A stretch of 64,000 nucleotides of DNA from the NCBI RefSeq assembly GCF_001513785.1, contig NZ_LNQS01000008.1:248001-312000 (forward strand). Reading direction: 5' to 3'. Shown here one piece after another: positions 36,508 to 39,896 of this stretch. The position numbers and the translations under genes are program-made. Numbering within the stretch: the stretch's first letter is position 1; each line of letters opens with the position of its first letter. Below the pieces are notes generated by a model, which was given only the letters and a program-made list of their open reading frames with translations, did no database searches and had not been told where the DNA came from. Source of the DNA: Rheinheimera sp. EpRS3 (GTDB lineage: Bacteria > Pseudomonadota > Gammaproteobacteria > Enterobacterales > Alteromonadaceae).

Positions 36508-37485
36508 CTACCCTTGTGATAATAATTCAGAGAGATCAATTAACGCGGCATTCGCGCGGGAGATATAATTTGCCATTACCAGGCTGTGGTTTGCCATCAA
36601 ACCAAAACCACTGCCGTTAAGCACCATAGGGCTCCAGATTGGCTGTTGTGTTGCTTCAAGTTCACGGATAATTTGCCGCAAACTGATCATGGCATTTTTA
36701 CGTTGTAATACGTCACTAAAATCTGTTTCTATTGCTTTTAGAAAATGCAGTAAAGCCCAGGCAGCGCCACGGGCTTCGTAAAATTCATCGTCTATTTTCC
36801 ACCAGCTGGTTTTGATATTACGATGTGCAGGCGTTTCGGTAGACTGGCGTGCTGAGGCATCACCGGCCAGGTCCGTGTTAATGCGCTCCTGGCCAACACT
36901 GGCGCTTAAACGTTGTGAGTAGCTGCCAAGCCGTTTCTCTACTGCTTTCACCCATTCGCGCAAATTATCAGCGCGGGCGTAAAACTGGCTATCTGGTTTG
37001 GCGGGATCTAACAGCTCGGCACGATACAAATATAGTTGCTCTATTGCCTTGGCATACTCGGCTTCAGCACTGGGGATAGCCCAGCTTCTGTGATCAATAT
37101 TAAAACGCGGCTGTGCCACTTTAAGAAAAACATTTTCTGTTGACTGTGACTGAGAGCGGCTAAAATCTTTACGTAAGGCCAACGCCAGATCACGTGACAT
37201 TTCCAGTACGCCTAACTCCCATGCCGGCATATTATCCAGCAAGCTGAACGGCGGCATAATATCATTTGCCAGATAACCACCGCTTTTATACAGCAGGGTT
37301 TCACTGACGCGGATCAACGCAGTGGTAGTGCTATAACCGGTTATAGCGTCATCTCCCAGCTTGCGCTGCTCTTGCTTAATTTCTGCTATCAGCATGGCAG
37401 GTTCACGGCTTACCCACCAAGCGGTGCCATACATCAGCACCAGTATTGCCAATACTGCAGCACTGATGAGTTTTTTATTAACCAT
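36508..37485 (-). CDS. DUF2333 family membrane-anchored protein
   Basis: ATG 37485 gives 325 residues with an N-terminal anchor (about 5-24) and a long soluble domain. Features of DUF2333 include DIMPPFSLLDNMPAWELGVL near the start and the C-terminal SPMVLNGSGFGLMANHSLVM. GAGGG lies ten bases before this ATG; an ATG 30 bases upstream is possible. It sits between a copper chaperone gene and an outer-membrane barrel gene. Function is unknown. Confidence 0.75.
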   Translation of the reverse strand: MVNKKLISAAVLAILVLMYGTAWWVSREPAMLIAEIKQEQRKLGDDAITGYSTTTALIRVSETLLYKSGGYLANDIMPPFSLLDNMPAWELGVLEMSRDLALALRKDFSRSQSQSTENVFLKVAQPRFNIDHRSWAIPSAEAEYAKAIEQLYLYRAELLDPAKPDSQFYARADNLREWVKAVEKRLGSYSQRLSASVGQERINTDLAGDASARQSTETPAHRNIKTSWWKIDDEFYEARGAAWALLHFLKAIETDFSDVLQRKNAMISLRQIIRELEATQQPIWSPMVLNGSGFGLMANHSLVMANYISRANAALIDLSELLSQG

Positions 37486-37495
37486 AAAACGGCCC

Positions 37496-37927
37496 TCAGC
37501 GTTTGGGTGTAGCAACTACCGGCACGGTCAACGCCAGTTGCTGGCCATCAGCAAACTCTAACGTCAGCGGTATTTGCTGGCCAATTTCCAGTTTGTCTTT
37601 AGGTTCAAACAACATCAAGTGCAAACCGCCCGGCTCAAATGCCACACTGCCACCGGCATCAATATTAATTTCACTGATTTGTTCCATGCGCATCATGCCA
37701 TCTTTATGAGTATGCTGATGCAATTCAACCCGCGCAAACTGGCTGCTACTGGCAGCAACAAGCGTAGCCATTTCTGAAGAATGATTATGTAATATCAGGT
37801 AACCTGCCGTTACCGTGCGCCCCGGCATTGGCTGACGAATTTGGCTCTCTTGTGCACTGAATGCAGGTTCAGCATTAACCGACATAGCGCAGCTTAACAT
37901 CAGCAAAGCAGCAAAAAACCGTAGCAT
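37496..37927 (-). CDS. PCu(A)C periplasmic copper chaperone
   Basis: The 143-residue protein has a signal peptide ending VNA and the PCu(A)C fold. His and Met ligands are visible in RVELHQHTH, GMMRM and GGLHLMLFEPK. Such chaperones bind Cu(I) and deliver it to cytochrome oxidase or other periplasmic sites. AAGGAG precedes the ATG. A gap of 80 bases separates it from the PspC gene. Confidence 0.9.
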   Translation of the reverse strand: MLRFFAALLMLSCAMSVNAEPAFSAQESQIRQPMPGRTVTAGYLILHNHSSEMATLVAASSSQFARVELHQHTHKDGMMRMEQISEINIDAGGSVAFEPGGLHLMLFEPKDKLEIGQQIPLTLEFADGQQLALTVPVVATPKR

Positions 37928-38007
37928 CTTGTTTCTCCTTTATAGTCACGGCCTTATCTTACACCAGTTTCAACCAGTTAACAGCCCGTAACTTACCTGG
38001 TACAGTG

Positions 38008-38205
38008 TCAACGGTTTGGTAGCACCACCGCAGCCACCAGATAGGCCAGTATTACTGCCACAGGAAACATCACTAATAATATGACAGCCAGCAGACGGAT
38101 CAGCCAGCGTGGTTGCTGATAATAACCGGCAAAACCTGCACAAACGCCGGCAATTTTCCGGTAAGCACGGGCACAATACCAACGATCAGTGTCATAAGTT
38201 GCCAT
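38008..38205 (-). CDS. pspC: PspC-domain membrane protein
   Basis: The 65-residue protein has the PspC opening RKIAGVCAGFAGYYQQPRW followed by one long hydrophobic helix (IRLLAVILLVMFPVAVILAY). It lacks the C-terminal tail of full-length PspC. PspC senses inner-membrane stress in the phage-shock system. GGAG precedes ATG 38205 by nine bases. Two tiny membrane genes and a secreted-protein gene lie upstream in the same direction; no pspA or pspF is present in the window. Confidence 0.85.
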   Translation of the reverse strand: MATYDTDRWYCARAYRKIAGVCAGFAGYYQQPRWLIRLLAVILLVMFPVAVILAYLVAAVVLPNR

Positions 38206-38314
38206 TTGTCTGTACTCCATCAAGGTGTTTTTTATTTATCTGACTCAGCTCTGCTAACAGCAGTAAAGCCACAAAAATAGCAAAGGCTGTCAGTTCTATT
38301 GTTACCCAACTCAT
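38192..38314 (-). CDS. 40-residue membrane protein upstream of pspC
   Basis: The frame encodes MSWVTIELTAFAIFVALLLL followed by a polar tail. AAGGA lies eight bases before the ATG. It overlaps the pspC start by 14 bases, suggesting coupling. It occupies the place of pspB but is shorter and I cannot claim homology. A small single-span protein is the safe description. Confidence 0.55.
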   Translation of the reverse strand: MSWVTIELTAFAIFVALLLLAELSQINKKHLDGVQTNGNL

Positions 38315-38329
38315 ATCAGCGTTCCTTTT

Positions 38330-38461
38330 CTACAACATGCCTGAAGCTTTTTGCCCCAAACCAAACAGTGGCATCAGCCAGTGCCACAGCAGCACAACGG
38401 GTATTATGCTTAGCACCGGGCTGAGAAACAGCAGCAGTAACCAACCGGATGACAGCAACAT
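38330..38461 (-). CDS. 43-residue membrane protein in the pspC operon
   Basis: The product is almost wholly hydrophobic: MLLSSGWLLLLFLSPVLSII, then PVVLLWHWLMPLFGLG and a short polar end. It starts three bases after the upstream gene's stop and ends 15 bases before the next start, spacing typical of an operon. No family is recognised. Confidence 0.55.
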   Translation of the reverse strand: MLLSSGWLLLLFLSPVLSIIPVVLLWHWLMPLFGLGQKASGML

Positions 38462-38464
38462 AAC

Positions 38465-38734
38465 TTACTCTGCCACTACAGCGGCAGTACGCACTGCCTG
38501 ATATGCCAGTAATGCCGTTGCTGCATCCTGCTCAGCGGTTTGCCGGGCCAGCAGCTCTAACGCAGTTTTATGCAGTGCAATTCTGGCCTGTTGCTGATTG
38601 TGGCTATGCAGCTCCTGCAATTGCTGCTGGGCTGCGCCACGGATTTGGTCCGTAAGTTCATCTGCCATCGCATTGTTAGCCAGTAAAGCTCCGGCGAAAG
38701 CAGCAGTGAGGGTTAACGCAGTCAGTGTCTTCAT
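38465..38734 (-). CDS. 89-residue secreted protein, first gene of the pspC operon
   Basis: A signal peptide (MKTLTALTLTAAFAGALLA, cleavage probably after NAMA) leads a short Ala/Gln-rich helical protein. AAGGA lies upstream of the ATG. A sigma-54-like promoter lies at 38779-38796. The gene begins a run of four very small envelope genes ending with pspC. No family is recognised. Confidence 0.7.
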   Translation of the reverse strand: MKTLTALTLTAAFAGALLANNAMADELTDQIRGAAQQQLQELHSHNQQQARIALHKTALELLARQTAEQDAATALLAYQAVRTAAVVAE

Positions 38735-38778
38735 TATCGTTTCCTTGAAAGTGGTTAGTCTGTACTACACAACCGGTA

Positions 38779-38796
38779 TTTCAAGTGCTGTGCCAA
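38779..38796 (-). promoter_or_regulatory. Candidate sigma-54 promoter of the pspC mini-operon
   Basis: On the minus strand TTGGCAC-AGCAC-TTGAAA has the -24 GG in a perfect TTGGCAC box and the -12 element TTGA at the right 12-base spacing. The -12 doublet is GA instead of GC. As I recall, the E. coli pspA promoter also departs from GC there. The start point expected near 38770 leaves a 36-base leader. Confidence 0.55.
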
Positions 38797-38840
38797 GTCG
38801 ATAAAACATCGTAAGTAGCTGATATTAATAAGTAAAAAAA

Positions 38841-38874
38841 TAAAGGCGGGTAACTTTCGTTATACCCGCCTTTT
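38841..38874 (-). terminator. Rho-independent terminator of dusA
   Basis: AAAGGCGGGTA (38842-38852) pairs with TACCCGCCTTT (38863-38873). On the minus strand the stem is followed by TTTATTTTTTTA, a strong termination signal after speD-dusA. Confidence 0.9.
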
Positions 38875-38906
38875 ATTGAAAACCAAAAAATAGTGAAATT
38901 AACTCA

Positions 38907-39896
38907 TCAGGTGGTTAAATCCGCCACAGGCGCTACTTTTGCCAGTGCTTGCAGCATTAACTCTGGTGTTGCATCAGCGAAATGACCACGCTCGCTTAAC
39001 AAACGCCGCCATTGTCTGGCACCCGGCATACCTTGAAATAGCCCCAGCATATGGCGGGCTATATGCCAAAACCGGGCGCCCTGCTGCATTTGCCGCTCAA
39101 TATAGGGCAGCATATCCAACACCACCTGATGCGGGCTGCGGCTGTAACCGGGTTTGCCATATATAAGCTCATCAACACTGCTTAGCAACATAGGGTTTGA
39201 ATACGCCTCGCGCCCCACCATCACACCGTCCAGGTACTGCAGTTGTGCTTTGGCTTGCTCGAGTGTTTTAACGCCACCATTAAGGCTGATATTAAGCTGT
39301 GGAAACTCACGCTTTAACTGGTATACCCGCTCGTAATTCAGTGGCGGCACTTCGCGGTTTTCTTTCGGGCTTAAGCCTTTAAGCCAGGCTTTACGGGCGT
39401 GGACAATCAATTGCTGACAACCAGCATCGGCTACTGTCGCGACAAAGTCCTGCAAAAACTGATAATCGTCGGAATCGTCAATACCAATGCGGGTTTTCAC
39501 CGTCACCGGTATGCTGACTACATCCTGCATGGCTTTGATGCAATCGGCCACTAACTGTGGCTGCGCCATCAGGCAGGCACCAAACATGCCGTTTTGCACC
39601 CTGTCAGACGGGCAGCCAACATTAATATTTACTGCATCATAGCCGCGCTGCTCTGCCAGCTTAGCACAGTGCGCCATATCAGCCGGGTTAGAACCGCCCA
39701 GTTGCAGCACCACAGGATGCTCTTCTTCATTAAACGCTAAATAATCACCGCTGCCATGAATAATAGCGCCGGTAGTGACCATTTCAGTGTACAGCACGGC
39801 ATGCTGGCTCAGCAGGCGGTGAAAGTAGCGGCAATGCTTATCAGTCCAATCCAGCATAGGGGCGATGGAAAACTTATGGTCGATAAGCCTGGCCAT
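38907..39896 (-). CDS. dusA: tRNA-dihydrouridine synthase A
   Basis: The flavoenzyme reduces uridine 20/20a of tRNA. The 329 residues show the FMN barrel opening [34 protein letters not shown] with the catalytic Cys, and KTRIGID. It begins three bases after speD and ends before a strong terminator, so speD-dusA form an operon. Confidence 0.96.

Follow-up and report, generated by a model that had tools for sequence, protein, structure and literature searches.

Four short genes lie between dusA and a PCuAC copper-chaperone gene in the window (the whole stretch of 64,000 nucleotides that was analysed) of Rheinheimera sp. EpRS3. The open reading frames (ORFs) of the window place them on the minus strand in the order P1, P2, P3 and PspC2, with 3 nt between P1 and P2, 15 nt between P2 and P3, and a 14-nt overlap of P3 with PspC2 (Table 1). 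The initial annotation had described genes of 89, 43, 40 and 65 codons at operon spacing, and the ORF coordinates bear this out. Its remark that the small frames fall far below gene-calling limits holds insofar as 40-43 codons is short, but common gene callers have a floor of about 30 codons and the frames lie above it. An Rfam search of positions 37400-39600 gave zero matches. Downstream of the mini-operon the minus strand carries PCuAC, DUF2333 and then a TIGR04219 outer-membrane protein gene (37927-35742), and PCuAC and DUF2333 are frequent after PspC2 in other genera and families as well. The gene following PCuAC was also considered as SCO1-like, which was rejected, the family library giving DUF2333. 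The closest named relatives of the strain are members of Rheinheimera, and the PspC2 proteins of R. hassiensis and R. oceanensis share 97% identity with that of the window.

Table 1. Positions of the genes and regulatory features at the dusA-PCuAC locus
Feature	Position	Strand	Remarks
PspF-type enhancer site at -131	38911..38927	minus	GTGGCGGATTTAACCAC; 9.5 bits, p 0.012 against shuffles; within the 3' end of dusA
dusA (tRNA-modifying gene)	38907..39896	minus	upstream neighbour, synteny anchor
PspF-type enhancer site at -110	38890..38906	minus	TGAGTTAATTTCACTAT; 9.0 bits
Hairpin with T-rich tail	38842..38873	minus	-18.7 kcal/mol, z -4.5; between enhancer and promoter
IHF-like site	38812..38824	minus	matches WATCARNNNNTTR; seen in the window's own locus (L086)
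Sigma-54 -24/-12 promoter	38781..38796	minus	TTGGCAC-N5-TTGA; pattern and conservation
P1	38734-38465	minus	89 codons/aa; ORF
P2	38461-38330	minus	43 codons/aa; ORF
P3	38314-38192	minus	40 codons/aa; ORF
PspC2 (P4)	38205-38008	minus	65 codons/aa, 71 codons with an in-frame TTG start; ORF
PCuAC copper-chaperone gene	37927-37496	minus	downstream of the mini-operon

The products had been annotated as exported or membrane-embedded, and their predicted features agree with this. P1 begins with a stretch that looks like a signal peptide by eye (its best 19-residue hydropathy is just 1.44), and P2, P3 and PspC2 contain strongly hydrophobic putative membrane segments (2.58, 2.28 and 2.96 on the same scale), of which P2 and P3 each consist of one. 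PspC2 passes the Pfam PspC model (PF04024; 51.2 bits, cut-off 25) and fails the PspC equivalog TIGR02978 (44.9 bits, cut-off 104). It comprises a PspC domain without the long C-terminal part, with 65 aa compared to the 148-codon canonical ORF. P1, P2 and P3 matched no Pfam or NCBIfam model above cut-off; among 20 relatives of P1, no Pfam family was matched by more than one, and a PDB sequence search with P1 and PspC2 returned nothing convincing (best E 0.016 and 0.021, respectively). P1 is probably an exported protein of a new family. P2 is a membrane miniprotein with an L-x-PV motif, and its position is pspB-like in relatives. Its identification as a shortened PspB was not supported, with no PspB family match and profile comparison probabilities of 11 and 4 percent. 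P3 is a membrane miniprotein found in Rheinheimera only; its origin as a remnant of a PspG-like protein or of P2 was rejected too, the SWVxxEL likeness seen by eye having no profile support.

Most of the small frames are kept across Rheinheimera relatives, as the initial annotation had proposed to check. For the selection analysis, pN/pS was pooled over distinct sequences only (13 for P1, 10 for P2, 12 for P3 and 13 for PspC2), using pairs that differed at 1-30% of sites, which left 16, 12, 15 and 72 in-frame pairs, respectively. These values supersede earlier dN/dS medians (0.32, 0.17, 0.37 and 0.05), which were affected by saturated dS and duplicate sequences. The in-frame pN/pS was 0.16 for P1, 0.18 for P2, 0.23 for P3 and 0.12 for PspC2, whereas one shifted frame gave 1.24, 0.95, 0.56 and 1.04, and the other gave 1.87, 2.41, 1.71 and 2.51. 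Judged from these ratios, all four frames are under purifying selection and are more than chance ORFs. P3 has the smallest contrast between the in-frame and shifted values, thus the weakest selection signal of the four, and was not found in a diverged metagenome-assembled genome (MAG; locus L010). A second sigma-54-like sequence was seen about 65 bases before pspC2 in L010 (~2936) and L121 (~1436), where P3 is missing.

The sigma-54 promoter before P1 is rare by chance and conserved among relatives. The pattern YTGGCAYN5TTGNAAT has one match in the window, where 0.05 are expected, and six in the 4.4-Mb genome, where the reversed control has none; two of the six are the window promoter and the promoter of a second P1 copy. 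Slightly varied forms of TTGGCAC-N5-TTGA were present in all loci read from Rheinheimera (seven) and Pseudoalteromonas (two). To extend the comparison, 60 regions around PspC2 matches were taken from 35 genera, picked by high score and spread and blind to promoters. The pattern occurred in the expected stretch of 56 of them, compared with 14 of 1200 shuffled regions. Three of the four loci missing the strict pattern differ in having A as first base (L147, L195 and L196), and in the fourth (L193) no sigma-54 sequence was matched. A simple search for sigma-70 promoters across 37900-39100 listed one site, on the plus strand, with 1.2 expected.

The initial annotation had also reported pspA, pspB and pspF as absent. 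This is true within the window, but canonical pspF, pspA, pspB and pspC are present in the same genome at G000:C1:1159-1162k, so the absence is an effect of the window. A PspF match over the curated cut-off was found in 79/79 genomes of the family. With canonical psp genes present in this genome, the mini-operon is likelier to be a second target of that PspF than a separate system. Compared with the canonical pspF-pspABC unit, the mini-operon shares the PspC domain, the PspF-type sites and the sigma-54 promoter, while the dusA-PCuAC interval contains neither pspF nor pspA and no recognisable pspB.

Two candidate enhancer sites precede the promoter. The 17-base enhancer motif was trained on nine pspF-pspA intergenic sites from Rheinheimera, other Alteromonadales-type genera and Aeromonas. 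When applied to E. coli as an outside check, it found sites at -80 and -100 of pspA and at -67 of pspG, which we take to coincide with the mapped PspF sites. The -131 and -110 positions are conserved in Rheinheimera, and the two sites of the window are weaker than those in most relatives. Sites scoring 9 bits or more within 200 bases were found at 53/56 promoter loci versus 43/2800 shuffles and 2/56 downstream control windows, and both bands (-105 to -114 and -126 to -136) were filled in 21/56 loci versus 0/2800 shuffles. Exact matches to the enhancer pattern at C2:1857 and C9:210256 lie inside frames of other genes and were taken as chance. Another sigma-54 activator could in principle act here, the likeness to PspF sites being shared AT-rich dyad symmetry, and the genome does have further activators of this class (three TIGR02974 matches with E up to 1e-80, pspF alone being listed over the cut-off). 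However, the motif was learned from pspF-pspA, has fixed spacing, is rare in shuffles and downstream controls and also finds the E. coli pspA and pspG sites, and we consider this explanation quite improbable. On the motif, its spacing and its conservation, control of the mini-operon by PspF has good computational support and is predicted with moderate confidence. The suggestion of a sigma-54 promoter of phage-shock type is thereby upheld, given its conservation in the related loci together with PspF-type sites.

Between enhancer and promoter, the hairpin with its T-rich tail is the probable terminator of dusA, judged from its fold; a terminator scan did not list it. The IHF pattern was matched in 11/56 related promoters versus 29/2800 shuffles, and with just 11 promoters carrying it, an IHF site was rejected as a general feature.

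P1 was searched in the genus and matched in 26/31 genomes, with at least 40 matches, of which 30, including the window's own, were taken as loci. In all 30 the P1 match is preceded, at a distance of about 60-75 bases, by a sigma-54 pattern, and in 28 the enhancer motif scores 6 bits or more; no site of that strength was found at L095 and L109. By motifs, 14 loci have dusA, PspC2 and PCuAC, eight have dusA and PCuAC without PspC2, and eight have none of these. The last eight lack the dusA motif, so the association of P1 with PspF-type control extends to places other than dusA; the eight dusA loci without PspC2 mean that the four genes are not an obligate set. P2 still follows P1 in all four of the PspC2-less loci that were translated (of eight), and P1-P2 is therefore the most persistent part of the operon in Rheinheimera. 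The strain itself carries a second P1 copy (L113, minus strand, 1474-1791; G000:C1:1070k), which stands alone next to a glyoxalase-like frame and is preceded by a sigma-54 promoter of its own and an enhancer site of 17.4 bits. The strain also has an orphan 73-aa PspG-like frame (L218, 1480-1766; G000:C8:444k) that matches nothing in Pfam or NCBIfam. A sigma-54 pattern lies 65 bases upstream of the start of this frame, with weaker enhancer-like sites at -87 (8.8 bits) and -107 (6.0 bits).

Related operons are usually larger. Of the 60 related regions, searched by BLAST, 51 carry a gene for a PspA paralogue (pspA2) and 49 have a PspG-like gene. dusA lies no more than 3 kb upstream in 38 regions, PCuAC is present in 47 and DUF2333 in 44. 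The genes most often follow the order sigma54-P1-pspA2-P2-pspC2-PspG-like, and some genera have a separate promoter for P1. The assignment of pspA2 to the PspA family has Pfam support on two examples. Inspection by eye or by hydropathy identified P2 frames in roughly half of these regions, so their spread is a lower bound. The PspG-like gene and PspG are alike in size, hydrophobic C-terminus and regulation, but its identification as PspG was not supported (profile probability against E. coli PspG 4.5 percent), and the PspG family PF09583 was found in 0/59 sampled genomes of the family. A search across the order, covering 247 genomes, gave matches to the P1 profile in at least 27 (14 in the own family and 13 in others) and to the PspG-like profile in at least 20 (17 in the own family); both counts are lower bounds because these proteins diverge fast. 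Two further observations concern single groups of loci. In L150 (genus g45, 2482-2853), a frame for a miniprotein of about 24 residues (MEIVALMVVLAWFGIVGSWAADEV type) is present in three near-identical copies between P2 and pspC2; the gene before P1 in L151, L153, L158 and L184-L188 is sulfurtransferase-like by eye and not dusA-like.

The frequency of pspA2 and of the PspG-like gene in the related loci, together with the Rheinheimera loci without PspC2, would fit a decaying remnant, in which Rheinheimera lost pspA2 and the last gene of an ancestral P1-pspA2-P2-pspC2-PspG-like operon while the remaining genes drift. The in-frame pN/pS of 0.12-0.23 and the conserved promoter positions argue against this, as do pspA2-free forms in other families, and we give decay very little weight. 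The nine loci without pspA2 among the 60 regions belong to five genera (g1, g6, g36, g42 and g45), and P1-like frames precede PspC2 without pspA2 in families f6, f15 and f20. With such versions in other families as well, the change may have run in either direction, the pspA2-free form being perhaps the ancestral state or perhaps the product of repeated events. The initial proposal of a reduced or new phage-shock-like system is accordingly retained in part: the PspC domain, the conserved sigma-54 and PspF-type sites and the relatives with a PspA paralogue in the operon make it phage-shock-like; "reduced" fits the comparison within the sampled family, where most loci carry pspA2, but may not be the right direction, pspA2-free versions being present in other families too.

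The position after dusA links the mini-operon to pspG of E. coli, which lies at the same place and on the same strand, with P1-P2-P3-pspC2 here in place of pspG. The same motif finds a PspF-type site at both, although the spacing differs (-67 in E. coli and -110/-131 here). The dusA-pspG spacer is listed as an RpoN site of E. coli in passages of PMC8743547, and passages of PMC9239133 give the E. coli PspF regulon as pspA-E together with the orphan gene pspG. A survey of what follows dusA covered 40 regions in 25 families, with one to three regions per family and three regions shortened by contig ends; they were chosen among the genomes that matched dusA (103 of 109). In these regions pspG followed dusA in six, a PspC-type gene in 13, neither in 21 and both in none. 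The pspG loci, L259 among them, belong to families f10, f18 and f21, and the PspC-type loci to f1, f4, f6, f13, f14, f15, f16 and f20; one of the 21 regions with neither (L254) has a short PspC-like frame by eye. We regard it as a reasonable possibility, somewhat short of an even chance, that the position behind dusA has long served the phage-shock regulon of gammaproteobacteria as a cassette site under PspF control, with E. coli pspG as one tenant, and that P1-P2 are a new class of Psp effector, P1 guarding the periplasmic face. We know of no Psp protein that acts from this face of the membrane.

The genes and the promoter are real, which we hold with high confidence. The mini-operon is most likely a second PspF/sigma-54 Psp unit at the dusA/pspG site, a small membrane-protecting module that needs no PspA of its own; of this, the PspA-independent protection of the membrane is proposed with lower confidence. 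We infer the binding of PspF, induction by stress, the localisation of the proteins and their effector role as follows. Damage to the inner membrane would free PspF from PspA, and PspF would bind the tandem sites at -131 and -110, with IHF perhaps bending the DNA, and open the sigma-54 promoter. P1, P2, P3 and PspC2 would then be made together from this one promoter, P1 being exported to the periplasm and the other three entering the inner membrane. There the four proteins may protect the membrane without their own PspA, in the way that PspBC of Yersinia enterocolitica is reported, in passages of PMC5596341, to suffice against mislocalised secretins. The Yersinia proteins are small inner-membrane proteins, as P2 and PspC2 are predicted to be.

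The main rival to the effector role is a role in feedback, in which PspC2, made only once PspF has become active, would bind PspA or draw it away at the membrane, making the activity of PspF longer or sharper, while the small proteins would tune the signalling instead of protecting the membrane. PspC2 is a PspC-domain protein under probable PspF control, and according to passages of PMC5596341 canonical PspC releases PspF by binding PspA. That binding is reported for the C-terminal part, which PspC2 lacks, and for this reason PspC2 is more likely to act as an effector than to transduce the signal; we consider the feedback role unlikely.

No description of such an operon appeared among the best-ranked titles of a literature search that covered the main text of open-access papers. 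The terms "Alteromonad" and "Shewanella" are absent from the main text of PMC9239133 and PMC11237479, and "Pseudoalteromonas", "PspG" and "dusA" do not occur in the latter. Provisionally, such an operon has not been described before.

In conclusion, the mini-operon of Rheinheimera is familiar in logic and new in content: it is real, conserved and probably a second Psp operon under PspF. The regulatory signature that in E. coli belongs to pspG is found here at a second operon, larger and variable in content, which the sampling traced through 35 genera of one family and into further families and whose small-protein families are unnamed in the libraries searched. This operon offers concrete genes for testing how the membrane is protected and by which Psp proteins, and it makes pspG one of a wider set of dusA-linked operons.
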